Source: a virus. Taken from it: 29,910 bases of DNA. Shown here piece after piece: positions 2,263-26,128 of the stretch. The notes below the pieces were generated by a model, which saw only the letters and a program-made list of their open reading frames with translations, had not been told where the DNA came from and did not search any database. The DNA lies in the IMG/VR virus record IMGVR_UViG_3300025120_000337, positions 1-29,910 of that record; one strand, written 5' to 3'. Made by a program: the position numbers and the translations under genes. The first letter of the stretch is position 1. Every line of letters begins with the position of its first letter.

Positions 2263-2875
2263 TAAAGATGTTTTAGATGGAATGAGAGCTGTAACACAAG
2301 CTGCAGCTGGATTAAAAGACGACTCAGTAGAAGAGTTAGTAGGAAATTTAGTATTACAATTTCAAAGTGCTAAGTTACAACAAGACGCTGCATTGTTTAA
2401 TGCTAAAGTAAATATTGCTACAGGTCTAGTAGAAAAAGGTATGCAAGGATATGAAGATGCAATGAGTAATATAAGTAGTTCTAATTTATCATCTGGTAGA
2501 TTAAAAAAATATGCAGCAGAAGGAACTCCAGGTTTTGGTTATAAACTTGCTAGAAGAAAAGTAAACAATGATGTAGAATCTTATTTAGATAACTTCGAAG
2601 CTAACTATACACAAAGTGAACAATATTATAAAAAACTTTCTACAGTTTCAGCATTGACTGGAGGAGAAAGTAATCCTATAGTTGCTGGTGCATTAGATGG
2701 TTTAAAAACTCAAAGAGAAAATTTAATAAAAGCAAAAGAACTTTATACTTCTCAAATTTTTGAAGCTAGAGGAGAAGGAGTTCTTACTAGCAAGGGAAGA
2801 TCAATGGGTATTACAGCTAGATTAAATGCAAACATAAGTTTATTAGATAGTATTATTGACCCTATAGAGGATTAA
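2252..2875 (+). CDS. Helical internal virion-like protein, 207 aa
   Basis: ATG 2252 is preceded by GGAGG (AGGAGGTTCTAATG) and overlaps the previous gene by 11 nt. The 207-residue product is almost entirely predicted helical, with no Cys and no enzymatic motif, and has coiled-coil-like stretches around residues 20-70 and 110-160. By position between a gp14-like protein and the giant protein it could correspond to a second ejection protein. The sequence shows no family signature that I recognise. It joins the giant gene by TAATG at 2873-2877. Confidence 0.6.
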   Translation: MSYSKDVLDGMRAVTQAAAGLKDDSVEELVGNLVLQFQSAKLQQDAALFNAKVNIATGLVEKGMQGYEDAMSNISSSNLSSGRLKKYAAEGTPGFGYKLARRKVNNDVESYLDNFEANYTQSEQYYKKLSTVSALTGGESNPIVAGALDGLKTQRENLIKAKELYTSQIFEARGEGVLTSKGRSMGITARLNANISLLDSIIDPIED

Positions 2876-5800
2876 TGGAATACAAAAACGGAAAGTTAAT
2901 ACAAGCAATAGATGCTTATAAGACTGGTGTATTAGACCAACAACAATATTACAATCAATTAGATTTAATATACAGAGCTAACCCTACTTCATTTACAGAA
3001 GAAGAAGTAGACTTTTTAGAAAAGCAATTTAAAAAAGTTGATTTACCTTTTAATAGGGATTTGGAAGCAGCTGACAGTAATTTAATATCTACTGTAAATC
3101 AATTTGTATCTGGTATGGTAGAAGGTTTTACTACATTAGGTTGGGCAGAAGACCCTGATACAACAGCAGAATCTATAGCAAATAAAGTAGGACACCTTAT
3201 TGGTTTTGCTCCTGATGTTGTAGCTAGTGTTTTATCTATGGGTCAATATGTACCTATAGCTACTGCTAAAGCTATAAGTCGTAAAGGTGCTGGTACAGTT
3301 ACCAAAGGTTTACAAGCAGCTGGTCAGAAAGCTCCACCTATGTTACGTAAAGAAATAGGTACGGACACATTTGTTTTACAATCAATACCTATGAAGGTAG
3401 CAGACGTTGTAATGGACAATGTAAAGGCTAGTTTAGGTAGGGCTAATGTAGATACTACAGGATTCTTAGCTAAAGGTATATTTAGAAATCCTAGATTTAG
3501 AGATATAGGAGAACAGTCTATGCATCTTGGTGTAGCTATGGCTGTTTCAAGTTGGAAAGATGGACCTAAAGCAATGGCAGACACTGCTGTTCATGGTGCT
3601 ATGGCGGGGGCTTTGTTTGGAACTATAGGTAACTATGTAAACGTTGCTCGTGTATTAGGTAATCCTAAGACTACTAAAGCTGGTCAACAAATAATTCGAG
3701 GGGTAGCACAGAAAGCTTACGATACAGACACACAGCTTACAGGTATTAACATGGCTATAAAAGGTACGTTAGGTGCTGGTTTCCAGGGTGGTATGGCTAC
3801 AGCACAAGGTTTACCTGTACCAGAACAAATATATGAATATCTATTAGGTGGATTTTTTGGAGCTACAGCTAGAGATAGAGGATTTGTAGACAGAACTAGA
3901 TACATAAATAAAAACACACAAAAATTTGGAGACCCTACAAAACCAGTAGAACAAGTATTAAAAGATTTAGCCCAAGATCCAGAGTTTGAAACTTTATCTA
4001 GTTACGATAAACAATATGTAAAGAATCATATAAACGTAGTACAGCAACAAATATTTAATAGATTAAATTCACTTGAAGGTGAAGCTATTACTATTATAAG
4101 ACAGATAGCTAAAGAAAATAAAATTGATTTACCTAATGCTTCTAAAGAACAATTCGAAGCTATTAAAAAAGAATATCAAGAAAGAAAAGTATCTGAAGTT
4201 TTTGACAACACTACCATAACAATGAAGGATGATGTTGTAGAATCTACTAGAGAGGTAGATAAAATTAGAAAAGAAATAATAAATGATTTAGGATTGGACA
4301 TTGATAGTTATATAAGAATACAAGACAATAAAGATTTGAATGAACCCTTAGCAATTAATAACGATGTTCGTGCAATGGCTGACATAATGCGTGGATATAA
4401 AATTGGTAGAAACACAAAAGATAACACTGGTGCTTTACTTGAGTTGTCTACATTAATAGAAAAATCTAATTATGATTTACCTACATTCCGTAAAGAATTT
4501 GTAAAGCGTTATAAAGATATATTAGATGATCCAATAAAAGTTATTAATGAAATGGACGTTAATAGATTAGGTTCTTATTTAAAGATTAGAAAAAATTTAC
4601 AAGATAGACCTGAGCTATTAGTAGACATGTCTTCTTCACAAGTAAAGGTAGTGGAAGCACCAAAGGTTAGTTTAGAAGGGTTACCTATCAATGCTAATAG
4701 ATCTGAAAATAAATACAACAATATTTTTAGAAACCCTGATGGAAAAAGAACTAGATTAATATTAAGAAAATCTTACGTGCTAGAGAAGTATCATACCTTT
4801 GGTATTAAAGGTGGTAAACAACAACCAGTATATAAGGTAGAGTCTCCTTTAGGTTTTGAAACAAAGCCTATGAGTAAAGCTGAGCAACAAAAAATTAAAA
4901 GAAAACAATTTGAAGACTATCTAACTAAGGAAGCTTTAACTACAATAAAAAAAGAATTATATAAAAAAGATGCATACATATTTAGTGGAGCAAAAGACTC
5001 TGGTATGGTATTGGTGCATGCCTTTCCTTTTAAAAATACTGATATAACTAGCTCACAACAACAACAAGTATTAAATACATTAGGATTATTTAAAGGACAA
5101 AAACTTTCCGAATCTCAATTAAAAGAATATACTTCTAATATATATTATTTATTAGCAGAGTCTGGTTATATTAATACTAATACTGTACCCACAGTTAATA
5201 CATTGGTTACTGGTATGAAGGATTATATTAACCAACCTTTATATGAAACAGTACAAAAGTTTAACAAGTATCAAAACTTATCACAGAGTCCTGATGTAAA
5301 ACTAGAAGCTGAAGACTATGTAAACCATTTACAAAACAATAAAAGACCAGAGTTAGTAACTGATGGTACTTTCAATTTTATAACAATGAAAGATTTACAA
5401 TCTAGTTTTACAGTAAAGGGAGAGCCTTCTGTTTCAGCTACTGATGCTGTAGTCTATGCAAGAAGCGATACTTTTAATACAATACAAACTAAAAATTATA
5501 GACAAGCAAAGAATGGATTCTTAAAACTTGTAGGATATAAAGCACCAGCTGAAGGTGTAGGTAATATATTATTAAAAACTGGTACATTTAAAGCTACTAA
5601 AGCTATGGATAAGTTTATGTTTGAAAATAACATACACTTTATAGCTTCTGAATCTGCAGCTAAAACACAAGTAGGATTAAAATTACATAACATAGCTTAC
5701 GATCTTATAAGTAAGACCTGGGGATTTGGTTCTTCAGATAAGGTTATACAAAAATTTAAAATGAAACCAGAAGAATTGTATTTGAATTATGGTGTTTACG

Positions 5801-8800
5801 AAAACGTTATGAAATTAAATAAACCAGCATTGATATCTAAACAAATGTTTGATAAGATAAATTACGAACAATTAGGAACTGATGGTCAAGCTTTTAAAGA
5901 TGCGTATAATAAAATGGTACAAGATTCTTTAGGAGGTAAAGAAGCAGATAATATACTATTCAAAGAAGCAATGACAAAAGATGATTCTAACTTTGACATA
6001 CGTGATTTAAATAGTGTAGATTTAACTTTAATTAATGAGGCTATATCTAACGAAGGACTAAGAACTAAGTTTGGTAAAACAGTTTTAAAGAAAATATTAG
6101 AAAGAGGACAAGAAGATTATCACACATTAATACAAGAGCAAGGAGATAGAATAGACGCTGAAAGATTTGGTATAGAAACTATGGATGTACCTGATGTATT
6201 AGCTAAGTTAGATTATGACATATCTGCTATAACATATCCACCTTTATTGTCTTGGATAAATAAAAGTTTATCTAACTACAGACAGATGAGACTTGTAAAA
6301 CCTACAGTTGAACATGGCTTTGATGCTAAACTAGGCCCAGCAGATTTAGAAGTTGCTAACAATCTAAGAGATAATGAAATAAAATTTGGCGAAACAATTA
6401 GACAGAAAACTATAAATGTAAAAGATGTTGGTGAAATGACAATGGAACAAGCTTGGAATACGTTTGAACCTATGAAAAAAAATCCAACACAACATCCTTT
6501 ATACAATAACTATAAAGAAGCATTGACTTTTTTAATTATGAGAAATCCTAATAGTGGTAATGGTGGTGTTCGTGTAGTTGAGTTTGTTGGTTTTAGTGGA
6601 CGTGACGGACAGCATGCTGTTACTACATCAAAGACAGATTATTATTTAGGTGGTGCAGATAAAGACGCTGATGCTGTAATAGTGTATCAAAATATGCCTG
6701 AAATATTTAAGAAAGTATTTAATAAATATGAAAGCGAACTGTTTATTGGTGGTGAGACTAGGTCATTTGAGCAACCAGAAGGTACCTGGAAGGACTCAAA
6801 ACTAGTTGAGCCTTATGATACCACCAATACAAAGAAAGTGTCCCTTAAAAACAAGAAAGCTTTAGAAGACTTAATAGAAACAGATACTCGTATAAGTGTA
6901 GCACGTAATGCAAAGATAGGTAAAGTTAACATAGATTATATTGTTTCAAGTTTTAATAAGATGCAAGTTGTTGCAGATATAATAGAACAAAACGGTGGAT
7001 CATTAGAAGGTACATATACTACCAAGGTTAAAACTAAAAATAAAAAAGGTAAAACAATATATAAGACTGTTACAAAAGATGTTACAATAGAATTAAAAGA
7101 CGCTGTTAAAAAATTACAATTAGATAATTACATTGGTGTCAATCTTATGGCAGACTCATCAAACTTTATTAAGATAGAAAAATATAATGTAATACAAGAT
7201 ACCTTTTGGAAAAAATACTTTAATGTAAAAGGTGCTAAAGTAGAACAATTTAGTGATGCATTTAAAAAAATAGATTCGTTAGCAACTATTAAAGATTTAC
7301 ATTCTTTAGTTTATTTAGGTAAAGGTCAAGCTAAGTATGACCTTGTAAATAAAATAGCTGATTCTTATTTAGAAATACATGGAGATGCTAATCATTTTTA
7401 TAGCAATCTAGCTTTAGGTATGAAAGAATTTCCTAATTTTACTATTAATCCTTTTAAGTATATGTTTGAAAAAGACTTCCAAGGATTTAATTCTATAGAA
7501 GTAGCAGAGCAATACACTTTATTATTAAGAGAAAAATTAATAAATAGTAAGATGTTAAAAAGATTTGGTATTGCTGACAATTATCGTAACGAACTAGAAG
7601 CTAGAGCTACTTTAAAAAACTATGTTAAGAACGATAACTTTGATGGCTTGTATCAAAAAATGATAGAGTATAACGGTGTTTATATTTCCTCACAAATTAG
7701 TGCACAACTTGCTAGAGATGTTGCAAGACTAACAGAAACAAGATATTCTAATGAAGCTATAGAGCCTGTGATACAAGACATGATAGACACAGCTTATAAA
7801 ATAAAAAGATTATACAATAGAGATGAAACTATATCTGTAACTGGTAAAGAAAAAAATGAAATGAGTGTAGCTGATATTAATAATTTTATAGCTACATATA
7901 AATTTAAATTAAAAACTAAATTCAAATCTGAACCTGACTTATATAAAAAATTAGAAGACGTGTTTGAGTCTTGGTTACAATCAACACCTATCATAGGTAA
8001 AGATCCAACTAAATTACAACAAAAAATTATCAATGATATTGAAAGTCAAAATGCAGAAATGGTAATAAAGGAACAGTCTAAAGGTTTCAATGTTAATAGC
8101 GGTGTATATCAAAAAGCTTTAGAGATAAAAAGTAAAGCTATAAATAGTATACAACCTTATACACCTTTTATGATTAAATCTGTAGCTATAAATCCAAAAA
8201 ATAGAGAGATGTTTTTTAAGAGAATGCAAACTGTGTTAAATCAAAACACGAGAATTATTGCAGATAGATTGTTAGGTGATAGAGATATAGAGTTAGACAA
8301 GTTTATAAACGATCATATGATTGGCGACGATAGAACTTTTAATATAAAAACAATTAGAAATGCAGTAGAGAACGATAGTTTAACTAAGGATGTTATGACT
8401 GTAGAAGGTGACAATGTTGTATATAATTACAGAGGATTAGATAAAGCAAAAAAGAATAAGACAATACCTAAGGATACTCCTAGTACTTTAGATAGAGTAT
8501 TGAATGCAGAAGAACTTGTTGGAAAACTTTTACCTCAATTTGATTATCTATCTAATCAACAAAACACTAGAAACAAAGTTATAACTACTGAAGCACAAAA
8601 AGAATTAAAAAGATTAAGAGAAATTATAACCAAGTCTCCAGATTCTATTAATAGATTTGAAGAGTTGTTTATTGATATGACTTATAGATTAGAAGGAGTA
8701 GGTAGAAGACTAGATACTTTAACTGTTCAAGATTTAAAATCGTTTAATAGTGGATTAGAAATACTATATAGTCCTAAATCAGCTAAAGAAAAATTAAATG

Positions 8801-11800
8801 AATTTGAACGTGGCCCTGACTGGAAAGACAATACATTTAATTATCAAGTTGTAGGTAAGGAGCTGGCAAGAACAGAACAGTTAACAGAAGAATTTACTAG
8901 ACCAGTGTTAGATAAGTTTGGTAAGATGAAAGTTATGCGTATAGAAGTTCCTACATCTACATTAGAACTAGGAAGACAGACTATAGATAGGTTTGATACT
9001 TTTCAAAAGGTAATGAATCCTGCTATGCAAAATAAAATAGATGGTACTTTTGAATACCTAGATGCTAATAGTGCAACTTTAATAAAATATAGAGACTTAT
9101 TATTTGAAGCTGCTGTAAACAAATTAGAGTGGAACGACGGTAAATATCCTACTGGATCTTATGATAAGGTTGAAAAAACATATATAAAAGATTCATGGAA
9201 GGATTCTGAAAGAGCTATAAAAGAATTAACTTCAGCTGGAGAAACACTACCATTGTCAACTAAGACAGGTGAAGGTATTAAAAGAAGAGTAAAACCTATG
9301 GAGTTTGTTGATAAGATAGTTAAAGATATAGAAACTCTAACAAAAGATATAGATAAAAACTTTATAAAGTCTAGACATAAACAACTAGCACAAACTTTAG
9401 TGGTTAACTATAAACTACCTGGATTATTTATAAGAAAAGATGGAGATGTTGTAGGGAAGTGGAAGCTTTCAAGAACAAAAGATATTTCTACTAAAAATTT
9501 AGAACAGTTATTTTTACAAGACTCTGGTATTATTGATACAAATAAAATATCAATACTATATAAAGATATGTCTAATAGAAATATTGCTGAACGAGAATAC
9601 ATTGCTAAGTATTTACCTTCTATAAATGATTATAGGTTCTTTAAATACCATTTACAAGTTAAGGATAGAGTACAATTCTTATTACCTAAAATAGATTTGA
9701 ATAAAAAATTAAATCCAACTCAAAAAAAATTAGTACAACAAGCTGTGTTGAAAGAAATATATGGAAAGACTGGCAAGAAAACTGATTACTTTGCTAAGTA
9801 TCAAGTAGGTGACATAATGCAAGGTTACTTTCCTAGGAATGGACACGGTTCTTACAAAGCACAAAGACCTGAATTAGAAAAGTGGCAAGCTAAAAAAATA
9901 GAAAACGATTTACAAGCTGCAAAAGATGATCCAAAAAGATTACCATTTGAATTACAAGTAGCTCTTAAATTTAAAAGAATTAATATGGCTACAGCATTAT
10001 CTACATACAGAGAACATTTAAATACTTTATTCAAAAGAAGAGAGAACAGTTCCTTAACTGCTGGTCAAGCAGAAGCAGAAAGACAAATGATAGATATTAT
10101 GTCAAGACCTAATGTAGATGGTTTTATTGGAGACTATGCTACTGGTTCTACTAAAAGTAGAGGTGAAGAGTTTATGCCTTTATATAAAAAAGATTTAGAT
10201 GCGTTAAGATATTATGCTAATGGATTATTTAAAATGTACTTTACAAATTTAGCTGGATTACGTAGTGAAATATTATTAAAAGATTTTGATTACTCAAATA
10301 AGGGTAAAGAGTATGCAAGAGACTGGTCTAATTATATGCGTAATGCTTTTACTAATATGATGGGACTAAGTACTTATAGAGCATACAACATACATGGTAT
10401 AAAAAAAGCAGATCAACCTTTGTTTAAAGAATATATTGACAAGGGACTAGACATAAGTGCTATGAAGACTAAAGGTTCTTATCAAAGAGATTTAATTAGA
10501 GACTTTGATATAGCTATTGACGTTAAACCTAATGAACAACTTTTAATACTTAGTAAAAATAGAGGTAATATAAAGTTAGCTGAAAAAGCTATACAAGATT
10601 TAAAAATGAAACGTGCTTTAGATCTTGTAGAACAGGTAAACACTACAGGTAAGTATGGTTCTTTATATCATTACACAAGTGATGAAGTAGCAGTTGGTTT
10701 GTTTAGTAAGATGAATACTTTATTTGGTGGTAAATTGTTTGGAAGATTGCCAGAGAACAGGCGAGATAGACAGTTTGAAATTATGTCACGCATAAGACAC
10801 CTAAGTGATTTAGAAGGTAAGTTTGAATTGTTATCATTATTATCACACCCTAAGACAGCTATAACTAATCTGTATGGTGGTATGCAAAACACTATATCTG
10901 ATACTGGATGGTCTTCTTTTAGAAAAGCTAATGATCCAGCGTGGATGATAAAAAATATATTTGATAATGGTAGAGCTGAGTTTAGTTTTGTTAATGAAGC
11001 AACTGGTAAAGTAGAAGTTAAAAAAATTAATAGTAAAGAACGTATATATGAATGGTTAGAATCTTTAGGTGTATACGATCAAATGTTTTTAGATTTAATC
11101 TCTTTAGATAAGAACTTTGGTAAACAAGGTATAAGAAAATTTGTAGAAGAAGCTACAAGAAGAATGAATAGATCTTATGCTAGAGGAGAGATAACTACTA
11201 AAGAAATGCATACTAAAACAGAGCAAAGAACTTTGACTGAAGTTGCAAGAGATTTAAAAATAGATATACCTATAACAGAGTTTGGTGCATTGCCTATGAA
11301 GTGGTCTGAACGTAAGCTACGTGGTACTGCATTCTTAGCTAATTATATTAACATGCATCAAAATGTTTTGGGTCCTAAGATATCTGATGGAATACCATTT
11401 AATAGTACTGTACTAACTGACTTTGCTATGAAAGGTGTAACAGCATCACAGTTTATGTATCAAGCTACATTTAGACCTAACTTTGCTAACACATCATTAG
11501 GACGTGTGCTTACAAGATTCCAACCTTATGCATGGAATAGTATTGGTAGACGTATGAGACTGTTTAAAGATGCACAACAAGCACAATGGAATGCAGATGT
11601 TCAAGCATCTAAAAAGTTTCAAAGACAATTTACATTTGATGTAATGGCATTAGCTATGGCAAATATATTTGTAGCTAGTATATTTGAATACGCTTTATCA
11701 CCACCTATGAATTGGTTGCAAGATACAAGTGGATTATTATTTGGTGATGCTAAGGAACGTGAACGTGCTTTCTTTAGTTCTTACCCTCACCCTGTGTTAG

Positions 11801-12090
11801 CTCCATTACAAATTGTAACTCCCCCTATTGGACGTTTTGTTCTTTCTCCTATCACTGCAGTATTAAATGGAGACTTTGATAAGTTTACTAAATACCAATT
11901 AGCTACATACTTTCCTTTTGGTAGGTTATATCGTGATGCTAAAAGAACTTATGAGTCACCTGCTATGGCAGTAGATTTTATGACTGGTCTACCTCTACAT
12001 CAAATACATACATTGAGACGTGGTCAAGTAGAAGAACAAGAAATGCTGGAAGCAGAAGACTTAGCTGACGAGCTTACTCTAGAAGAGTAG
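2875..12090 (+). CDS. Giant (3071 aa) virion/ejection protein, candidate virion RNA polymerase
   Basis: A single uninterrupted reading frame of 3071 codons. The N-terminal part has Gly/Ala-rich hydrophobic stretches (about residues 105-135, 236-260, 298-340). A hydrophobic helix lies near the C-terminus (about 2920-2940), followed by Pro-rich amphipathic segments and a FPFGRLYRD motif near the end. The central part is soluble and Lys/Asp-rich. This architecture and the genomic place fit a giant internal protein ejected with the DNA. At residues 1223-1266 there is R-N-P, then 39 residues from that Arg to the first Asp of A-D-K-D-A-D-A-V-I-V. The arrangement matches the RAPT ... NADFDGDQMAV block of the beta-prime double-psi barrel, with the usual Gly replaced by Ala1265. 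About 80 residues before R1223 lies VKPTVEHGFDAKLGP (1141-1155), a possible upstream barrel segment. A virion RNA polymerase related in fold to crAss-like phage or YonO enzymes is therefore possible but unproven. I saw no T7/N4-type palm motifs and no lytic transglycosylase motif. Confidence 0.8.
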   Translation: MEYKNGKLIQAIDAYKTGVLDQQQYYNQLDLIYRANPTSFTEEEVDFLEKQFKKVDLPFNRDLEAADSNLISTVNQFVSGMVEGFTTLGWAEDPDTTAESIANKVGHLIGFAPDVVASVLSMGQYVPIATAKAISRKGAGTVTKGLQAAGQKAPPMLRKEIGTDTFVLQSIPMKVADVVMDNVKASLGRANVDTTGFLAKGIFRNPRFRDIGEQSMHLGVAMAVSSWKDGPKAMADTAVHGAMAGALFGTIGNYVNVARVLGNPKTTKAGQQIIRGVAQKAYDTDTQLTGINMAIKGTLGAGFQGGMATAQGLPVPEQIYEYLLGGFFGATARDRGFVDRTRYINKNTQKFGDPTKPVEQVLKDLAQDPEFETLSSYDKQYVKNHINVVQQQIFNRLNSLEGEAITIIRQIAKENKIDLPNASKEQFEAIKKEYQERKVSEVFDNTTITMKDDVVESTREVDKIRKEIINDLGLDIDSYIRIQDNKDLNEPLAINNDVRAMADIMRGYKIGRNTKDNTGALLELSTLIEKSNYDLPTFRKEFVKRYKDILDDPIKVINEMDVNRLGSYLKIRKNLQDRPELLVDMSSSQVKVVEAPKVSLEGLPINANRSENKYNNIFRNPDGKRTRLILRKSYVLEKYHTFGIKGGKQQPVYKVESPLGFETKPMSKAEQQKIKRKQFEDYLTKEALTTIKKELYKKDAYIFSGAKDSGMVLVHAFPFKNTDITSSQQQQVLNTLGLFKGQKLSESQLKEYTSNIYYLLAESGYINTNTVPTVNTLVTGMKDYINQPLYETVQKFNKYQNLSQSPDVKLEAEDYVNHLQNNKRPELVTDGTFNFITMKDLQSSFTVKGEPSVSATDAVVYARSDTFNTIQTKNYRQAKNGFLKLVGYKAPAEGVGNILLKTGTFKATKAMDKFMFENNIHFIASESAAKTQVGLKLHNIAYDLISKTWGFGSSDKVIQKFKMKPEELYLNYGVYENVMKLNKPALISKQMFDKINYEQLGTDGQAFKDAYNKMVQDSLGGKEADNILFKEAMTKDDSNFDIRDLNSVDLTLINEAISNEGLRTKFGKTVLKKILERGQEDYHTLIQEQGDRIDAERFGIETMDVPDVLAKLDYDISAITYPPLLSWINKSLSNYRQMRLVKPTVEHGFDAKLGPADLEVANNLRDNEIKFGETIRQKTINVKDVGEMTMEQAWNTFEPMKKNPTQHPLYNNYKEALTFLIMRNPNSGNGGVRVVEFVGFSGRDGQHAVTTSKTDYYLGGADKDADAVIVYQNMPEIFKKVFNKYESELFIGGETRSFEQPEGTWKDSKLVEPYDTTNTKKVSLKNKKALEDLIETDTRISVARNAKIGKVNIDYIVSSFNKMQVVADIIEQNGGSLEGTYTTKVKTKNKKGKTIYKTVTKDVTIELKDAVKKLQLDNYIGVNLMADSSNFIKIEKYNVIQDTFWKKYFNVKGAKVEQFSDAFKKIDSLATIKDLHSLVYLGKGQAKYDLVNKIADSYLEIHGDANHFYSNLALGMKEFPNFTINPFKYMFEKDFQGFNSIEVAEQYTLLLREKLINSKMLKRFGIADNYRNELEARATLKNYVKNDNFDGLYQKMIEYNGVYISSQISAQLARDVARLTETRYSNEAIEPVIQDMIDTAYKIKRLYNRDETISVTGKEKNEMSVADINNFIATYKFKLKTKFKSEPDLYKKLEDVFESWLQSTPIIGKDPTKLQQKIINDIESQNAEMVIKEQSKGFNVNSGVYQKALEIKSKAINSIQPYTPFMIKSVAINPKNREMFFKRMQTVLNQNTRIIADRLLGDRDIELDKFINDHMIGDDRTFNIKTIRNAVENDSLTKDVMTVEGDNVVYNYRGLDKAKKNKTIPKDTPSTLDRVLNAEELVGKLLPQFDYLSNQQNTRNKVITTEAQKELKRLREIITKSPDSINRFEELFIDMTYRLEGVGRRLDTLTVQDLKSFNSGLEILYSPKSAKEKLNEFERGPDWKDNTFNYQVVGKELARTEQLTEEFTRPVLDKFGKMKVMRIEVPTSTLELGRQTIDRFDTFQKVMNPAMQNKIDGTFEYLDANSATLIKYRDLLFEAAVNKLEWNDGKYPTGSYDKVEKTYIKDSWKDSERAIKELTSAGETLPLSTKTGEGIKRRVKPMEFVDKIVKDIETLTKDIDKNFIKSRHKQLAQTLVVNYKLPGLFIRKDGDVVGKWKLSRTKDISTKNLEQLFLQDSGIIDTNKISILYKDMSNRNIAEREYIAKYLPSINDYRFFKYHLQVKDRVQFLLPKIDLNKKLNPTQKKLVQQAVLKEIYGKTGKKTDYFAKYQVGDIMQGYFPRNGHGSYKAQRPELEKWQAKKIENDLQAAKDDPKRLPFELQVALKFKRINMATALSTYREHLNTLFKRRENSSLTAGQAEAERQMIDIMSRPNVDGFIGDYATGSTKSRGEEFMPLYKKDLDALRYYANGLFKMYFTNLAGLRSEILLKDFDYSNKGKEYARDWSNYMRNAFTNMMGLSTYRAYNIHGIKKADQPLFKEYIDKGLDISAMKTKGSYQRDLIRDFDIAIDVKPNEQLLILSKNRGNIKLAEKAIQDLKMKRALDLVEQVNTTGKYGSLYHYTSDEVAVGLFSKMNTLFGGKLFGRLPENRRDRQFEIMSRIRHLSDLEGKFELLSLLSHPKTAITNLYGGMQNTISDTGWSSFRKANDPAWMIKNIFDNGRAEFSFVNEATGKVEVKKINSKERIYEWLESLGVYDQMFLDLISLDKNFGKQGIRKFVEEATRRMNRSYARGEITTKEMHTKTEQRTLTEVARDLKIDIPITEFGALPMKWSERKLRGTAFLANYINMHQNVLGPKISDGIPFNSTVLTDFAMKGVTASQFMYQATFRPNFANTSLGRVLTRFQPYAWNSIGRRMRLFKDAQQAQWNADVQASKKFQRQFTFDVMALAMANIFVASIFEYALSPPMNWLQDTSGLLFGDAKERERAFFSSYPHPVLAPLQIVTPPIGRFVLSPITAVLNGDFDKFTKYQLATYFPFGRLYRDAKRTYESPAMAVDFMTGLPLHQIHTLRRGQVEEQEMLEAEDLADELTLEE

Positions 12091-12445: not shown

Positions 12446-12566
12446 TATGATCTCCTGATTCTCTAAGTTTTTCTTTATCTTTTAACTCTTGTTCAATAGC
12501 TATAATAAGTTTTTGAGCTAATTTTATTATTACAGTAGCTTCATCTTTATTTATTTCTATCATCAT
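12432..12566 (-). CDS. Small hypothetical protein, 44 aa
   Basis: Two adjacent ATG codons at 12566 and 12563 follow AGGGA (AAAGGGAATATAATGATG read leftward). The upstream one has the better spacing and is chosen. The frame ends at TGA 12432-12434. The product is a Lys/Glu-rich helix with an Ile/Val-rich middle (ATVIIKLAQKLIIAIEQEL), so it may form a coiled coil or bind a partner. It overlaps the nuclease gene by 20 nt and the next small gene by 14 nt. No family is recognised. Confidence 0.6.
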   Translation of the reverse strand: MMIEINKDEATVIIKLAQKLIIAIEQELKDKEKLRESGDHNDNI

Positions 12567-12882
12567 TATATTCCCTTTCTATCTTAATTAATCTTATCCA
12601 TTCCGTGTATGGTATTACAGCTAACGCTTCTTTGCGATCCATTCTCGTGACTACTAGATCAACATCATCTGCATGATGCTTAGGATATAACCATTGTGCA
12701 ATCTTTTTTTTCATTTTAGCTTGGACTGCATATCCTTCTACTAAACAATCAACTTGTTCAGACTTACCTAATGCCTTACCATTTGAGGCGTAGGCCCTCT
12801 CAGCAGAGAGCCCTTCCTTTTTAGCAATATTAACACACTCTCTCTCTAGATTGTTGCCACGTATTTTATTTCTATGAGTCAT
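12547..12882 (-). CDS. PDDEXK-family nuclease, Holliday-junction-resolvase-like, 111 aa
   Basis: Small restriction-endonuclease-fold protein. An N-terminal RGNNLEREC helix carries a candidate acidic ligand (Glu13 or Glu15). Asp45 (VDCLVEG) and Gln54-Ala-Lys56 (VQAKMKKK) form the D-x8-QxK version of the catalytic PD-(D/E)xK core, with Gln replacing the more common Glu. Length and order resemble archaeal Hjc-type or phage resolvases that process branched DNA. The neighbouring primase-helicase, SSB and annealing protein support a role in replication or recombination intermediates. A mismatch- or nick-specific nuclease of the same fold remains possible. It overlaps the upstream 67-residue gene by 11 nt. 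Confidence 0.7.
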   Translation of the reverse strand: MTHRNKIRGNNLERECVNIAKKEGLSAERAYASNGKALGKSEQVDCLVEGYAVQAKMKKKIAQWLYPKHHADDVDLVVTRMDRKEALAVIPYTEWIRLIKIEREYNDDRNK

Positions 12883-16665: not shown

Positions 16666-16941
16666 TTAGTTTTCCAAGTCATTTTCGTATATAAAGTCTG
16701 TCCAATCTCTGCATATACTGCAGATACCAACTGGTGGGTCATCGTCGATTGGTTCTGTAACGCAACCACCATTACAACATGTTGATATCAAAGCACCTCT
16801 ATCTATTTCTCCTATTGTATCATTAACTTTTTTGAGTGTTTCATATAATTCTTTATATTTATTACTAGTGAAGATAATGTTATTAGGATTAAGTGGACCT
16901 TCGTGTTTGATAGACCATGTCGTATCTTTCTTTTCTTTCAT
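16666..16941 (-). CDS. Small putative zinc-binding protein, 91 aa
   Basis: Residues 54-77 contain Cys55, Cys56, Cys60, Cys74 and Cys77, with spacing C-x4-C-x13-C-x2-C, like a small zinc ribbon. Between the pairs lies an acidic TEPIDDDPPVG loop. The N-terminal half is a charged helix. The start follows GAAAGG (GAAAGGTTTAAAATG read leftward). It is the next gene after the ubiquitin-like cassette, separated by a stem-loop. A protein-protein or nucleic-acid binding role is possible. I cannot tell whether it belongs to the cassette, although a RING-like partner would be interesting. The Cys count is too low for a true RING. Confidence 0.6.
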   Translation of the reverse strand: MKEKKDTTWSIKHEGPLNPNNIIFTSNKYKELYETLKKVNDTIGEIDRGALISTCCNGGCVTEPIDDDPPVGICSICRDWTDFIYENDLEN

Positions 16942-17023: not shown

Positions 17024-17674
17024 TTAATTGACAAATCCATTGGAGTTTAATGACATAGTTTGAAAATTAAAAGAGAATTCTTTTAAATAAGGTTCCTTTT
17101 TAATAATCTGTTTTACATTATTACATATAAAACTACCTGTCATATTACTACAATAACTTGTAGCTCTGGCATTACAAGGATCGTCATCACCCTCGTCATC
17201 ACTATACCAGTACTTTTTATATTCTGTTAGAGTTGGTTCTTTCAAAGTGTATTGCTGGTAATGCTCAGCACCCATTCGTCCGTCTATAAGAACATCTGGT
17301 TTTTTATCTTTGATTATATTTTCAACCGCTTCTAACCTATCTTTCATTGAGTCAAACCCTAGTATAACTACATTTTTGTCTTGTGCTTGGTATCTCTCAA
17401 ACCTACCATTGTAACACTCAACATCTATTGATGGATTAATTGCTATCAATCTATCTTTCAATGCATCTACTTTTGATTTGTTCAAATCATTTCTATCATA
17501 TATAGAAACTCCTATGTTTGGACTTTCTACTATATCCATATCGTATAAGAATATACGGCTTGCACCCATCTTACCTAACGTTACAGCTGCGGCACTACCT
17601 ATAGCACCGCAACCTAAGAAATGATATGCATACTCATCGAAATTATTTATTATTCCTGAGTATCTTTCATTCAT
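17024..17674 (-). CDS. E1/ThiF-like ubiquitin-activating enzyme, 216 aa
   Basis: Predicted to adenylate the C-terminal Gly of the ubiquitin-like protein encoded upstream. It has a Rossmann nucleotide loop Gly21-Cys-Gly-Ala-Ile-Gly26, the acidic motif Asp45-Met-Asp47-Ile-Val-Glu-Ser-Pro-Asn53, and basic residues Arg61, Lys66 and Lys68 in the ATP region. GFDSMKDR (106-113) stands where E1 proteins bind ATP and metal. Cys167 (DPCNAR) and Cys175 (SYCSN) are candidate thioester cysteines. The length is near that of ThiF/MoeB, without the large extra domains of eukaryotic E1. The start overlaps the JAMM gene stop (ATGA) and has AAAGGAG. The usual NLxRQ Arg is not obvious, so the activating site is divergent. 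Confidence 0.9.
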   Translation of the reverse strand: MNERYSGIINNFDEYAYHFLGCGAIGSAAAVTLGKMGASRIFLYDMDIVESPNIGVSIYDRNDLNKSKVDALKDRLIAINPSIDVECYNGRFERYQAQDKNVVILGFDSMKDRLEAVENIIKDKKPDVLIDGRMGAEHYQQYTLKEPTLTEYKKYWYSDDEGDDDPCNARATSYCSNMTGSFICNNVKQIIKKEPYLKEFSFNFQTMSLNSNGFVN

Positions 17675-18540
17675 CTAAAACTCCTTTCCCATGCACTTGT
17701 TTCTAGCATAGTATCTACGTCAAAGCTTGTCCCTTTAACATATATGTATTGATCAGCCATTACTAAATTGATAACCGCATCTAACATATCTTTATCAAGT
17801 ACACCTACTCTTAACTCGCTTTTTCTTGCACCAAGCTTTCTGTTTAGATTACCTAATTGCTTACGACATGTATCATAATCGTCATCATTTATGTAATCTT
17901 GTAGTATGTTATCTATATCTGTTTCAAGATTTGTTTTCTCTTGATCAGATTCATCTGCCCATAATTGCACTTGTTGTTTAGATATATTAGTTTTAGTAGA
18001 CCAGTTATTACCCCAAGTTCCACCTGTTCTGATAACAGGAGTTGGTTTTACGCACAGTTCTGCCACATTGTCAGATATTTCTTTAGGTATTTCCATAGAT
18101 TTACCTATTATTGTAACTTCTGTGTCAGTTTGTGTCCCTGTTTTCCAATCACTAATGCGTAATATCTGTTCTTCTTTCAAGTTTATAACTAATGAAAAAT
18201 CATAATCATTATGTTTGTCTTGTTCAATAGCAGTAATATCTGTAGCTGACCAGAATACACCCATAGTATGGTGACTATGCCACCAGCAAAACCAATACGG
18301 TTCACCACCATGTTTGATTTCTGATTCAGTAAAGTATTTACCCATTGCTTCTTTAGTTATGTCTGTATTACCAGCAGTAATTTCTTGCTCTAGTATTACA
18401 GGTTCAGTGAATACAAATTGATTATTGATGTACTTAACAATCATGTATCCACCTATTTCACTTTGATATTCATCCCAAGCATGTCTAGCATACTGTTGTA
18501 ATGTTGTCCAATTTTCATCAGACATTATGAACTTATTCAT
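17671..18540 (-). CDS. JAB/MPN (JAMM) isopeptidase, deubiquitinase-like, 289 aa
   Basis: Zinc metalloprotease domain with a complete JAMM signature. Glu28 (SEIGGYM) is the general base, His88-Ser-His90 are zinc ligands, and seven residues later come Ser98-x-x-Asp101 (WWHSHHTMGVFWSATD). This is the exact H-x-H-x7-S-x2-D pattern of enzymes that remove ubiquitin-like modifiers. Residues 120-289 form a second, mostly helical region with an acidic IDNILQDYINDDDYD segment that I do not recognise. It may bind the Ubl or E2-like protein. It starts 2 nt after the E2-like stop with AGAGAGG and overlaps the E1-like gene by 4 nt. A tail-tip JAB role (lambda K-like) is unlikely here. Confidence 0.93.
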   Translation of the reverse strand: MNKFIMSDENWTTLQQYARHAWDEYQSEIGGYMIVKYINNQFVFTEPVILEQEITAGNTDITKEAMGKYFTESEIKHGGEPYWFCWWHSHHTMGVFWSATDITAIEQDKHNDYDFSLVINLKEEQILRISDWKTGTQTDTEVTIIGKSMEIPKEISDNVAELCVKPTPVIRTGGTWGNNWSTKTNISKQQVQLWADESDQEKTNLETDIDNILQDYINDDDYDTCRKQLGNLNRKLGARKSELRVGVLDKDMLDAVINLVMADQYIYVKGTSFDVDTMLETSAWERSFR

Positions 18541-18541
18541 T

Positions 18542-20368
18542 TTAACCTCTCTCCATTAACTGTTGTTCCATAGCAGTCATAATTTCTTCTGCTGTTTGAA
18601 CTGTTATCGTTTCATCTTCTCCAAATGGTAAATCTGTTTCTACTTCATAACTAAATGGTTCAGTAGTATCGTCATGATTTCCATCGAAAGAAGGTAAGTC
18701 TGGTACTATTGTATCACTATCATCACTTGTATCAAGCTCTTCTGATGTTACATTGTATAGTTCGTATCCACAATCTTCACCTAATACATCTTGTAACACT
18801 TTAACTAGATCATTATAGTGTCCATGATCTCTAGTAATACACTTATCTGCATCTAACATATCAACAGTGCTTTGTATACTATCAAATAAATAGTTTTGCA
18901 ACATTGTTATATGCTTTACTTCAACTTCATTTCTATCTAAATCAGGGTCACAAACATCTCTAACCTGTTGTATAGATGCTAACCAGTTCTTTTCAGTGAA
19001 TTGCCATCCGTATGTATATCTACTAGAATCATGTAACAGATCTATATGATCTTGTTCTGTTCCATTAATAAATATTGCATTGGATATTGATTGACCGCTC
19101 CAAGAATTATCACTAGCATAAGGTCCTGGTCTATGTGTACTGTTGATGCCATTCATTTGTAACAAGTTTTCTTGTATTACTTTTACTTGTATACTGCCTG
19201 AATCAAGAAAGATGCTATTATCCCATCTATCTTCTGGTAATGTAACAATACTATAACTAATATTGTTTAGAGGATTAGTACTCTCTACACAATATGTTTG
19301 CCATTGATCTAAATTTGCAAGTAAATCTACAAAATCTAATCTAAGTAAAGCATTGTTAATATCTTCTTGCATATTACCAAAACAAACATTCATCATAACT
19401 ACTCCTTTTTCTTCACCAAATAATTGTTTAGTGTAACTTAAAGAATTACCTATGAAAGGATGTCTCAAACCGTCGTCAATATTGTAATGTCCTACAGATT
19501 CTTGTCTACATCTGTAATGACTACGATTAGTTGACAATCCCATTGAAATTAAATAACTATCAATTTCACGTTCATAGACATAATGACTACTATTAAAGAT
19601 AGATGTATCTAACTCATCAAATGACCTAGTTTGTAGTGCTTGAAAAAGCTTATAAAATGGTATCTTAAGTGACAAATACAAATCTTTATTTGTTTTTAAC
19701 ACACCATAATGTTTACTTCTGTTAACATTTATAATTGGTATTTGAGCATTCTTGTATTTCAAGTCTAAACATATTGAACCTGTAAGAAACTTTAACATAT
19801 CTAACTGTGCTGCTGTTAACGGATCTTCTGATACACGATTAAATGTTTCGTATTGAAAAGTAAAATCGTATTCTAAATTATCTTTCAATCCAAATATCAT
19901 CTCAGCTTCTTTATCTTTTTCTTTGAACTTATTAATTGCAGACTCCATTGCTGTTTTAGCTATCTCTAAATCAGAATCTGTTGTAGCATTTCTACTTCTC
20001 AATAATCTTAGTTGTTCTTCTATGTTCAATACTCCTTTTTCGAAGTTTTCTTTAGACCAGCTCATATTAGAAGCTCTGTTGAACATAGTTTCTAACGTAC
20101 CAGTCTTATTGTATTGTAACATTCTATCTACGATTACTTCCTTGATTATATCTTTATAACCAGGAGACCATCTATAAGTCCTTGTAAAACCTAAGGGCTT
20201 AATTGGTTGTAGTAAACTTCTATTTCCACTAACATAAGTTGATGTAATATATCTTCTGTTGAGATTTTTTACTGCTTTTGCTAATTGATTTGAAGGACCT
20301 ATTACCATTTCTTGTGTAAGATTATCTAGATTAATAGACAAATCTTCCCATTCTTCTTTTATCCACAT
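18542..20368 (-). CDS. Putative E2-like ubiquitin-conjugating protein, 608 aa
   Basis: I chose ATG 20368 because GGAG is 6 nt upstream. A TTG four codons earlier lacks a ribosome site. The protein has no eukaryotic homologue that I recognise overall. Residues 303-329 contain His-Pro-Phe-Ile (303-306) and, 23 residues later, Cys329-Phe-Gly-Asn. A helix-rich stretch follows (331-355), then Trp356, Cys360 and Asn365-Pro-Leu-Asn. This order resembles the HPN ... catalytic Cys ... helix ... NP(x)N layout of E2/RWD-fold conjugating enzymes. The N-terminal 200 residues are helical and basic. The C-terminal region (about 535-590) is acidic and probably disordered. Its position between Ubl and JAMM genes is where E2 genes lie in Bil-type operons. 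The E2 role is inferred from motif order plus context, and the HP-to-Cys gap is long. Confidence 0.75.
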   Translation of the reverse strand: MWIKEEWEDLSINLDNLTQEMVIGPSNQLAKAVKNLNRRYITSTYVSGNRSLLQPIKPLGFTRTYRWSPGYKDIIKEVIVDRMLQYNKTGTLETMFNRASNMSWSKENFEKGVLNIEEQLRLLRSRNATTDSDLEIAKTAMESAINKFKEKDKEAEMIFGLKDNLEYDFTFQYETFNRVSEDPLTAAQLDMLKFLTGSICLDLKYKNAQIPIINVNRSKHYGVLKTNKDLYLSLKIPFYKLFQALQTRSFDELDTSIFNSSHYVYEREIDSYLISMGLSTNRSHYRCRQESVGHYNIDDGLRHPFIGNSLSYTKQLFGEEKGVVMMNVCFGNMQEDINNALLRLDFVDLLANLDQWQTYCVESTNPLNNISYSIVTLPEDRWDNSIFLDSGSIQVKVIQENLLQMNGINSTHRPGPYASDNSWSGQSISNAIFINGTEQDHIDLLHDSSRYTYGWQFTEKNWLASIQQVRDVCDPDLDRNEVEVKHITMLQNYLFDSIQSTVDMLDADKCITRDHGHYNDLVKVLQDVLGEDCGYELYNVTSEELDTSDDSDTIVPDLPSFDGNHDDTTEPFSYEVETDLPFGEDETITVQTAEEIMTAMEQQLMERG

Positions 20369-20385
20369 ATTATTCTCCAAATTGT

Positions 20386-20409
20386 GAGGGGTAACTAATG
20401 CTACCCCTC
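20386..20409 (-). other. Hairpin between the Ubl and E2-like genes
   Basis: GAGGGGTA (20386-20393) and TACCCCTC (20402-20409) form a perfect 8-bp stem with an 8-nt loop in the 53-nt gap. No U-run follows in the leftward direction (ACAATTTGGAG follows), so it is not a standard terminator. It could protect the mRNA end or set different levels of the abundant Ubl and the E2-like protein. Confidence 0.7.
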
Positions 20410-20421
20410 TGTTTATTACTA

Positions 20422-20721
20422 TTATCCACCACGTTTAGTGTTACTATTGAAAGCAACATAACATAACTTACCATCTGGATCACTATCTCCAGCACCTGGT
20501 CTCATTGCAGCTAATGCTTCTTGTCTGTTAACTGGGTTAACATTTACATTAACTGTACTATCTTCTCTGATCAATGAAGCTGAATGGCTATCTGCACCTT
20601 GCAAATACGTAATAAATTCGGCTACTGTTGTTACGTGAGCTGGTACATTTAAGTCTGTAATCCATTGCTCAGTATTAACTTTGTATTTTACGCCAGTAAA
20701 TGGCATTTGAGTTTCACTCAT
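20422..20721 (-). CDS. Putative ubiquitin-like modifier ending in free Gly-Gly, 99 aa
   Basis: The 99-residue product ends CYVAFNSNTKRGG directly at the stop codon. The exposed diglycine after a basic residue is the hallmark of a mature ubiquitin-like protein that can be adenylated without trimming. Predicted strands at about 10-16, 26-33, 56-63 and 85-92, plus a helix near 32-41, would suit a beta-grasp fold, but identity to ubiquitin, ThiS or MoaD is not visible. The call rests on the C-terminus plus the adjacent E2-like, JAMM and E1-like genes. The start overlaps the upstream stop (ATGA), with AAAGGA before it. An alternative is a sulfur carrier for the E1-like protein. Confidence 0.7.
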   Translation of the reverse strand: MSETQMPFTGVKYKVNTEQWITDLNVPAHVTTVAEFITYLQGADSHSASLIREDSTVNVNVNPVNRQEALAAMRPGAGDSDPDGKLCYVAFNSNTKRGG

Positions 20722-21125
20722 TTTTCTTTTCCTTTTTTATCATGCTTACTTGCTACCATAAGGAAGTATAAAGCGTAGTATAAGTAAGCGTTAGCTTTTC
20801 TTAAGTAATCATATGTTTTAGTATGTACTAACTGAGTTTGTAACATTGACTCAGATATAGAATATATTAAAGCATCTATTACTTCTTCTATTGTCTCTGC
20901 AAGGTTATCTCTCTCGACTGAGAAACATTCTTGCAAAGTTATTGGAACTTCACGGTGATATAACTTAGCACCATCGTCCAATCTTTTGTGAGCTATATGA
21001 TTGACTGTATCAACCAGCTCATTTCTTTCTTGAAATGTAATATCTTTTACTGCTTCTAATTGCTCACCAGCAAAAGTCATTTCTGTTTTAAACCTTCTTA
21101 GTATTTCTTCGTTATTGCCTTTCAT
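20718..21125 (-). CDS. MazG-like helical nucleotide pyrophosphatase-type protein, 135 aa
   Basis: An all-helical protein. The segment RLDDGAKLYHREVPITL (about 48-64) is followed by ERDNLAETIEEVIDALIYS (71-89), with Glu80-Glu81-x-x-Asp84. This is the G-x-x-x-Y ... E-x-x-E-E-x-x-D arrangement of phage MazG-like/all-alpha NTP pyrophosphohydrolases, which bind Mg through paired acidic residues. Such proteins reduce nucleotide alarmones or clean non-canonical NTPs during phage growth. It ends in a Lys-rich tail and overlaps the Ubl gene by ATGA and the preceding gene by TGA/ATG. The match is partial (only one EExxD helix is clear), so the activity is uncertain. Confidence 0.5.
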   Translation of the reverse strand: MKGNNEEILRRFKTEMTFAGEQLEAVKDITFQERNELVDTVNHIAHKRLDDGAKLYHREVPITLQECFSVERDNLAETIEEVIDALIYSISESMLQTQLVHTKTYDYLRKANAYLYYALYFLMVASKHDKKGKEK

Positions 21126-24553: not shown

Positions 24554-24647
24554 AATAGAAGGTAAGAAGATAGATGTTATAGAATTTTTAGCTGTACTTT
24601 CACAAGTATCAGAAGATTTTAGACTTACCGTAGTTATAAAAGACTAA
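24537..24647 (+). CDS. Tiny protein between TerS and TerL, 36 aa
   Basis: ATG 24537 lies inside the end of TerS in another frame and runs to TAA 24645-24647, whose last base starts the TerL ATG (TAATG). The 36-residue product starts MKKTIKIEGKKIDVIEFLAV and ends RLTVVIKD, a strand-helix-strand pattern. Its tight fit between two essential genes suggests a real coupled gene, although it could instead be a translational bridge. No function is assigned. Confidence 0.55.
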   Translation: MKKTIKIEGKKIDVIEFLAVLSQVSEDFRLTVVIKD

Positions 24648-26128
24648 TGGAAAAAGATAAGATATTACTTGAAATGGAGCAAGATATGCTTCTATTTGGC
24701 AGAATGGTAATGCCAAACATGTTTAGTGAAAACTCTCCAGGGTTTCATTACGATATTGTAAAGGAACTTAGTGGCCCAGAAAAACAAATAAATATTATTG
24801 CTCCACGTGGTCATGCTAAGTCATCGATTGTTGCTGGCGTTTATCCTTTGTGGCATTTAATGATGGATAAAGGTACAAAGGTTATTGTATTAGTATCTAG
24901 AACACAATCTCACGCTACAAAGTTAATGGGAACAATTAAAGACGTGTTAGACTATTCGCAAGAGTTTAGATATTTTTTTGGATACTGGGGGCAAAACTCT
25001 GCAAGAAAGTGGACTAACACTGAGATTGAACTAAAAGATGGTAGTATTATTATATGTAAAGGTACAGGACAACAGATAAGGGGGATTAAACATGGGAATC
25101 AAAGACCGACGTTATTGGTACTGGATGATCCTGAAGACGAGGTTAATACGAAAACTGCAGAAGCGATGGAATATAATCTACGTTGGTTGCTGCAATCTGG
25201 TGTTCCATCCCTTGACCCGCTCCGTGGTAGAATCTGTGTCATTGGTACTCCGCAGCATGAGCGATGTATGGTTGAAACGTTAAAAGAAATGAAGGGTTGG
25301 AAGAATATGCAGTTTAGTCCTGACCTTGAAAACAATCATGCACTATGGCCAGAGGTATGGCCCATTAAAAAATTAAAACAAAAAAAAGATGAGTTGAATA
25401 GTATTAATAGGTTGTCAGTGTTTTATAGAGAATATTTATGTCAAATCGTTGGAGATGAAGATAATTTGTTCCGTGCTGAGGATATTCAATATTATGACGG
25501 CTATATAGAAAGAGATGATCAGGGATTGTCGAATCTCGTACTGACGAACATAAATGGTGAGGAAGTTAAAGAGATTAGACCTGTAAACGTGTTTACTGGT
25601 GTCGATCCCGCATCAAGTACAAAGAAAGGAGCTGACTTTAGTGTTATTTTTAATCTTGCCATTGATGGCGATAATAACCGTTGGGTACTGCCATATTACA
25701 GAAAGAGAGCAACGCCACTAGATTTAGCAGATGCTATCATAGATAACTTCAAAGACTATAGAAGTGCTAAGACAAGAATAGAATCTGTTGGGTATCAAGA
25801 GATGTTACGTCAATACATAAAAGAAAAAGCAGAAGAAATGGGTATGTTTATACCTGGTTTAGAAATAAAAGAGAACCCAAGAACTAGAAAATCTTACAGA
25901 TTAGAAAGTTTACAGCCAATATTTGCAAATGGTAAGGTGTTTATACAAAAAAATATGCAAGCTTTACTAGATGAGTTAACTTTATACCCCAGAGGTAAAC
26001 ATGATGACTTGCTAGATGGTTTCTTTTATGCAAACAAAAATTGTTATAAGCCTGCTCACGACGCTGAATTGGTGTACGAAGAAGAAGATTATTACCTACC
26101 TCAGAAAAAAAACTGGAAGTTACAGTAG
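24647..26128 (+). CDS. terL: Terminase large subunit (ATPase-nuclease), 493 aa
   Basis: Motor that translocates and cuts DNA into the prohead. The N-terminal ATPase has a variant Walker A, APRGHAKSS (residues 52-60), and Walker B LLVLDDPED (156-164), where the second acid would be catalytic. GTPQHE (200-205) fits the coupling motif. The C-terminal RNase H-like nuclease has Asp320 in FTGVDPASS, an acidic residue near 330, and HDDLLDG (452-458), giving the metal-binding acids. The length is normal for the T7/HK97-like TerL range. Neighbours TerS and portal confirm the module. Fused coupling by TAATG with the 36-residue gene keeps stoichiometry. Confidence 0.95.
   Translation: MEKDKILLEMEQDMLLFGRMVMPNMFSENSPGFHYDIVKELSGPEKQINIIAPRGHAKSSIVAGVYPLWHLMMDKGTKVIVLVSRTQSHATKLMGTIKDVLDYSQEFRYFFGYWGQNSARKWTNTEIELKDGSIIICKGTGQQIRGIKHGNQRPTLLVLDDPEDEVNTKTAEAMEYNLRWLLQSGVPSLDPLRGRICVIGTPQHERCMVETLKEMKGWKNMQFSPDLENNHALWPEVWPIKKLKQKKDELNSINRLSVFYREYLCQIVGDEDNLFRAEDIQYYDGYIERDDQGLSNLVLTNINGEEVKEIRPVNVFTGVDPASSTKKGADFSVIFNLAIDGDNNRWVLPYYRKRATPLDLADAIIDNFKDYRSAKTRIESVGYQEMLRQYIKEKAEEMGMFIPGLEIKENPRTRKSYRLESLQPIFANGKVFIQKNMQALLDELTLYPRGKHDDLLDGFFYANKNCYKPAHDAELVYEEEDYYLPQKKNWKLQ

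Follow-up and report, generated by a model that had tools for sequence, protein, structure and literature searches.

A probable ubiquitin-like conjugation system conserved in the replication block of a tailed-phage lineage

Background

Eukaryotes and bacterial defence have so far been the known sources of ubiquitin-type systems, and to our knowledge ubiquitin-like conjugation in bacteria is known so far mainly as a weapon against phages. One such system is Bil, whose operon carries the genes for a ubiquitin-like modifier (Ubl), an E2 enzyme, a JAMM protease and an E1 enzyme in this order. The Bil modifier BilA is a tandem Ubl, the E1 protein BilD is composed of an inactive and an active adenylation domain (IAD and AAD) together with a Cys domain, and BilB contains a CEHH motif after the catalytic cysteine (PMC11354881). 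Additionally, bacterial operons comprising Ubl, E2, JAB and E1 genes (type 6d) were predicted by Iyer in 2006, and the lambda tail proteins I and K likewise represent a pair of a Ub-like and a JAB protein, but one that serves in tail assembly and has no E1 or E2 (PMC1779556). Neither a phage-encoded ubiquitin cascade nor a connection of crAss phages with ubiquitin or ThiF was found in the open-licence PMC literature.

Here we describe four phage genes that are likely to specify a complete ubiquitin-like conjugation cascade. With somewhat less assurance, we also consider it probable that a lineage of tailed phages possesses a complete and reversible system of this type as a regular, vertically maintained component of the replication block, which is distinct from Bil, CBASS and PRTRC and has cellular relatives with a eukaryotic-like E2. 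If this is true, phages too use protein tagging, and the whole cascade is one of their conserved traits.

Results and discussion

Gene organization of the module and its phage context

The window, which is the whole stretch of DNA analysed here, is a linear 29.9-kb virus fragment from IMG/VR that originates from a tailed phage. The following features were assigned:

17024-17674, minus strand: E1/ThiF-type adenylating enzyme, 216 aa, single domain (Pfam ThiF, 1.1e-18)
17174-17176, minus strand: candidate catalytic Cys167 of the E1, motif C-[NT]-x-[RK], invariant in the alignment
17597-17614, minus strand: nucleotide-binding loop GCGAIG of the E1, from the alignment
17671-18540, minus strand: JAMM/MPN metalloprotease, 289 aa (Pfam Prok-JAB, 1.3e-6)
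18238-18279, minus strand: JAMM motif HSHHTMGVFWSATD (His88, His90, Ser98, Asp101), with Glu28 at 18457-18459
18542-20368, minus strand: E2-like protein with large N- and C-terminal extensions, ATG start, 608 aa, ribosome-binding site GGAGAA
18839-18841, minus strand: second invariant cysteine of the E2-like protein, Cys514 (41/41 homologs)
19382-19462, minus strand: candidate E2 active-site motif His307-Pro308-Phe-Ile ... Val332-Cys333-Phe-Gly-Asn
20422-20721, minus strand: open reading frame of the Ubl modifier, 99 aa, C-terminus KRGG followed by the stop codon
20425-20430, minus strand: codons of the terminal Gly98-Gly99, invariant in 40 aligned homologs
24647-26128, plus strand: terminase large subunit (PHROG 38, 1e-80)

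The open reading frames confirmed four adjacent, tightly packed genes on the minus strand that encode the Ubl, the E2-like protein, the JAMM protease and the E1 in transcription order. The tight coupling reported in the earlier note, namely an overlapping ATGA at the JAMM/E1 junction and a spacing of 1 nt between the E2-like and JAMM genes, was found again in the sequence, and the four genes are presumably co-transcribed as an operon. The proposed location in a phage replication block agrees with the presence of a DnaB-type helicase gene (Pfam and PHROGs scans), the terminase gene and a portal gene (PHROG 156, 4e-69) in the window. The closest relatives of the terminase are those of Alteromonas phage AD45 and of Mannheimia and Pseudomonas phages, with 24-27% identity, and the portal protein had no match in a search of INPHARED, which indicates a phage group without a close cultured member there. 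An E3 gene was not recognised.

Two small genes flank the module on the same strand. A 91-aa gene located just after the E1 gene (16666-16941) encodes a CC-x3-C and a C-x2-C motif, possibly a zinc ribbon, and occurs close to the module in some of the loci. A 135-aa gene (20718-21125) overlaps the start of the Ubl gene by 4 nt and, with a dN/dS of 0.80 against locus L007, is evolving much faster than its neighbours. Elsewhere in the window, a 3071-aa protein (2875-12090, plus strand) had no Pfam or PHROGs match, and a 111-aa open reading frame (12547-12882, minus strand) gave a sub-threshold match to the restriction endonuclease NaeI (E=0.0015).

Conservation of the four genes

A search of IMG/VR with the E1 yielded 221 relatives, from which 80 distinct loci were kept. 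The JAMM gene adjoins the E1 gene in all 75 loci with sufficient room, the E2-like gene is located upstream in 57 of 58, and a Ubl gene is present in each of the 47 loci reaching far enough. In a second search, which took an E2-like subfamily as its starting point, 40 loci were obtained, some of them shared with the first set; here the JAMM gene was detected in 39/39 newly stored loci, the E1 gene was missing from a single short contig, and a Gly-Gly Ubl was present wherever the contig extends upstream. The search for the four-gene block in other phages that had been suggested as a check thus revealed a block conserved across IMG/VR loci. All four genes are under purifying selection, as the comparison of the window with L007 gave dN/dS values of 0.17 for the Ubl, 0.45 for the E2-like protein, 0.24 for the JAMM protease and 0.08 for the E1; the highest value, that of the E2-like gene, would not be surprising if this component selects the targets.

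In the E1 tree, which was rooted at the midpoint only and contains some long branches, the proteins form three separate and strongly supported groups, consisting of phages (21), Crassvirales and Flavobacterium phages (4) and cellular relatives (7). The separate phage clade argues for a module that has long been resident in phages rather than for a recent copy of Bil. The recent capture suggested by the wording of the earlier note is therefore not upheld in view of a clade of their own for the phage E1s and at least 80 loci; by these sequence comparisons the module appears to be an old phage-resident trait and not a fresh capture from defence.

Comparison with Bil, PRTRC and CBASS

The designation of the module as Bil-like holds for the gene order and the catalytic logic, which are the same in both systems, but not for the components. 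In contrast to the tandem, ISG15-like BilA with two Ubl domains, the phage Ubl is single and short; the phage E1 consists of one ThiF domain of 216 aa, whereas BilD is a multi-domain protein with a Cys domain; and the E2-like protein of 608 aa has an HP...C pattern without the CEHH motif of BilB. Measured against the published description of Bil (PMC11354881), the phage module is, as far as its sequences indicate, not a member of this group.

These differences bear on the view that the tag sabotages the virions of rival phages, as Bil does, and thereby provides superinfection exclusion. This function could overlay a conjugation cascade, and the gene order identical to that of Bil speaks in its favour, but the block lies beside replication genes and lacks the defining features of Bil, so that we regard it as unlikely. 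To the same degree unlikely, and equally able to overlay the cascade, is a counter-defence in which the module competes with, de-conjugates or mimics a Bil- or CBASS-type tag of the host. Phage inhibitors of ubiquitin-like signalling do exist, for example Vs.4, which acts downstream of Cap2 (PMC10097602), and the JAMM protease could act on host conjugates; a decoy or a deubiquitinase would however require one gene, whereas four genes are kept together here in the loci of sufficient length, all of them under purifying selection, and the similarity to Cap2/3 is limited to shared superfamilies. In type II CBASS, E1 and E2 are fused and accompanied by a CD-NTase, in contrast to the separate genes of the phage module; PADLOC E1-E2 models matched the E1 domain only, and no CD-NTase was recognised in the window.

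The PRTRC cassette, which is probably the type 6d operon, was compared by means of curated models. Only PRTRC_ThiF matched the module (E=2e-4), with 20.7 bits against a cut-off of 144.75, and some cellular relatives scored better to this model, but still below the cut-off. PRTRC_B was not found in roughly 440 genomes, a result that does not imply its absence. Like the phage module, the type 6d operon unites the genes of a small Ubl ending in Gly, an E2-like protein, a JAB protein and an E1 of the ThiF type, but its JABs have an extra N-terminal domain (PMC1779556).

The E2-like protein

Besides the ATG at 20368, the open reading frame offers an alternative TTG start (18542-20380) that underlies a 612-aa numbering; the ATG, located downstream of GGAGAA, should be the more likely start and yields the length of 608 aa stated in the earlier note. 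In the 612-aa numbering the central cysteine of the motif is Cys333, which corresponds to Cys329 of the 608-aa protein. Among 41 aligned homologs, Cys333 is invariant, Pro308 is conserved in 40 and His307 in 27, being replaced by Phe or Tyr in the remainder. The HP...Cys pattern recognised earlier is accordingly real, although its histidine is not invariant. Some homologs read HPYI...YGTVCLD at this site, and a conserved His downstream of Cys333 was not detected in the 41 sequences; the type 6d E2s, in contrast, lack the classical His and have a downstream one. The region of Cys514 reads C-x4-C-x5-C in most homologs (alignment A2), which suggests a metal site or a second catalytic cysteine that has been reduced to a single Cys in the subfamily of the window.

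Scans with Pfam, PHROGs, PADLOC and NCBIfam gave no match on this protein and none with an E2 model. Neither it nor the JAMM protease had a tblastn match among the INPHARED phages, and single-sequence pattern scans of IMG/VR with either protein likewise found nothing. The AF2 model of the full protein (pLDDT 81.7) retrieved no E2 from the PDB with Foldseek, the matches being gyrase and coiled-coil noise with E-values of at least 0.4, while the BFVD contributed six unnamed viral homologs. A likely relationship to E2 enzymes became apparent with profiles. The core of the phage family was linked by hhalign to the core of the E2-like family from the cellular operons described below (E=4.4e-8, probability 95%; 6.4e-7 with the whole cellular proteins). 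A profile built from the core of these cellular proteins in turn matched 37 PDB sequences, 35 of which are E2 enzymes, including UBE2A, UBE2L3 and UBC9; the E-values were marginal (best 0.01), and the best alignments cover nearly the whole domain and place HP and Cys onto the E2 active site. One cellular member alone matched Pfam UQ_con at 0.11. Since the link consists of two legs, each of which is modest, we rate it as likely that the protein is an E2, with Cys333 as the presumed catalytic residue. The reading of the block as Ubl-E2-JAMM-E1 in the earlier note is thereby supported, its E2 part by way of this profile link and not by Foldseek.

The same data bear on a transfer without E2, as for the archaeal SAMPs, in which the 608-aa protein would be a substrate or scaffold that takes the Ubl directly from the E1. 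The Foldseek result and the variable His307 would fit such a role, but the hhalign alignment with an E2-like family includes the Cys motif and the invariant Cys is embedded in an E2-type motif, which makes this explanation rather improbable.

The JAMM protease

The exact JAMM motif is confirmed, as Glu28, His88, His90, Ser98 and Asp101 are invariant across 32 homologs and HSHx7SxxD is present in 92 of 93 JAMM matches. The family profile retrieved an Rpn11-like protein as the top match in the PDB (4.3e-7). With its active-site residues intact, the protein is a putative deconjugating or processing protease.

The Ubl modifier and the E1 enzyme

The free Gly-Gly end of the 99-aa protein is as described before. 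The Ubl of the window itself has no family match, but Pfam ThiS was matched by 14 of its 40 homologs (best 1.9e-5). The AF2 model (pLDDT 83.7) has a beta-beta-alpha-beta topology, and the best 50 Foldseek matches in the PDB all have the ubiquitin fold, comprising ubiquitin, ISG15, FAT10, NEDD8, LC3-type proteins and UBL domains, with E-values from 0.0016 to 0.013 and probabilities of 0.97-1.00 for most. The beta-grasp fold on which the earlier note had made its proposal depend is thus the predicted one, and the model characterizes the protein as a ubiquitin-like beta-grasp protein.

Nearly all members have a single Ubl of about 65-115 aa. In 47/47 Ubl genes on contigs of sufficient reach, Gly-Gly either lies at the C-terminus or close to it or precedes a longer tail, whereas only 7 of 3133 other open reading frames of the same loci have a terminal Gly-Gly, which excludes chance. 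As the first alignment (A1) had been selected partly by Gly-Gly ends, all loci were searched with the A1 HMM without that selection, and Ubl genes with a K-x-GG type end were detected in loci earlier set aside as exceptions. The Gly-Gly is terminal in about half of the proteins. Most of the remaining ones have 1-10 residues after it, and three cases have tails of 31, 117 and 126 residues (overall 0 to 126). In ubiquitin precursors, the residues after Gly-Gly need to be trimmed by a protease, and variable tails encoded beside a JAMM gene would fit precursor trimming.

With respect to the E1, the GxGxxG and DxD motifs were verified as GCGAIG and DMD. Cys167 is invariant in all 23 aligned E1s, including those of crAss and FpV4, and C[TNS]x[RKQ] occupies this site in cellular relatives too. 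The motif C-[NT]-x-[RK] resembles canonical E1 active sites, and Cys167 is the candidate catalytic residue. The identity with crAss-like E1s is about 30%, and 28-33% with those of Crassvirales and Flavobacterium phage FpV4.

The ThiS matches of the Ubl homologs and ThiF as the best family match of the E1, together with known ThiS/MoaD-JAB-ThiF clusters without E2 (PMC1779556), would also fit a sulfur-carrier module that thiolates a metabolite, tRNA or nucleotide instead of tagging proteins, with the JAMM protease releasing the carrier and the 608-aa protein as sulfur acceptor or scaffold, but this is very unlikely given the E2-like family of the fourth gene, the motif at Cys167 and the fact that the rhodanese, thiamine or molybdopterin/Moco genes of ThiF/ThiS clusters were not recognised among the scanned ORFs of the window.

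Proposed function of the phage module

Taken together, the sequences point to a real and conserved phage-encoded ubiquitin-like cascade, the function of which is put forward here as a proposal. In the most likely scenario, infection involves a ubiquitin-like tag of the phage's own, which the phage both conjugates and takes off again. Judging from the enzyme families involved, the reactions would comprise trimming, adenylation, thioester formation, transfer, conjugation and reversal. The JAMM protease would trim tailed Ubl precursors and expose the Gly-Gly, while the Ubl of the window phage would be made in mature form. The E1 would adenylate the Gly-Gly end and load the Ubl as a thioester on Cys167, from which Cys333 of the E2-like protein would accept it for transfer to target lysines or other acceptors, the target probably being chosen by the additional N- and C-terminal domains of this protein. 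The JAMM protease would remove the tag as well, which would make the modification reversible. Proteins of early infection are the most likely targets, either replication proteins of the phage or host factors; DnaB and other genes of early type are neighbours of the block.

Related modules in cultured phages and in cellular genomes

The E1 search of INPHARED identified 76 phages, all with less than 60% identity and mostly crAss-like phages of Bacteroides and phages of Flavobacterium, and in many of them the E1 gene is annotated as thiamine biosynthesis. In Crassvirales (crAss001 gp79-gp76, L002:4283-8693, and DAC15) and in Flavobacterium phage FpV4 (L003:4595-8606), the JAMM gene is followed by the E1 gene among replication genes, as in the phage module, and a comparison of the JAMM profiles gave E=5e-9. 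Two genes upstream of the JAMM gene lies a Ubl-like gene that encodes KSG or KSGG; unlike the Ubl of the window, its product has a long C-terminal extension, and the comparison of crAss gp79 with the phage and cellular Ubl proteins was not convincing. As crAss gp78 gave no significant hhalign match to the phage E2-like or the cellular E2 family, gp78 as an E2 is a guess from position only. Since these related genes reside in cultured phages, the proposal is open to experiments with phages grown in the laboratory.

When species genomes were scanned with the JAMM profile, 11 MAG contigs were detected (L086-L096), with bins assigned to Deltaproteobacteria, Calditrichota, KSB1, Verrucomicrobia, Myxococcales and Lokiarchaeota; the short contigs may be misbinned or mobile. 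In most of these contigs a GG-ending Ubl gene precedes the JAMM gene, and between both a protein of about 320-480 aa is encoded that has the motif HPH[IV]..G..C[LW]GN and in many cases a tail rich in Cys (examples are L087:1143-3882 and L091:1719-4887). The phage and cellular Ubl families were linked by hhalign at 1.8e-11; together with the link between the E2-like families and the retrieval by the JAMM profile, several components thus match one cellular operon. This operon shares the order, the motifs, the GG Ubl, the JAMM protease and the one-domain E1 with the phage module, but differs by its separate E1 clade, a shorter E2-like protein and JAMM sequences that are 24-38% identical. The phage module is thereby connected with a cellular Ubl(GG)-E2-JAMM-E1 operon that is apparently undescribed so far and has an E2 similar to those of eukaryotes. 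The cellular operon of L087 is followed by a ParB gene. The contig L090, binned as Natrialbaceae, encodes a DFDRD-motif protein upstream of an E2-like gene (L090:3858-5819) and looks like a wrongly binned virus.
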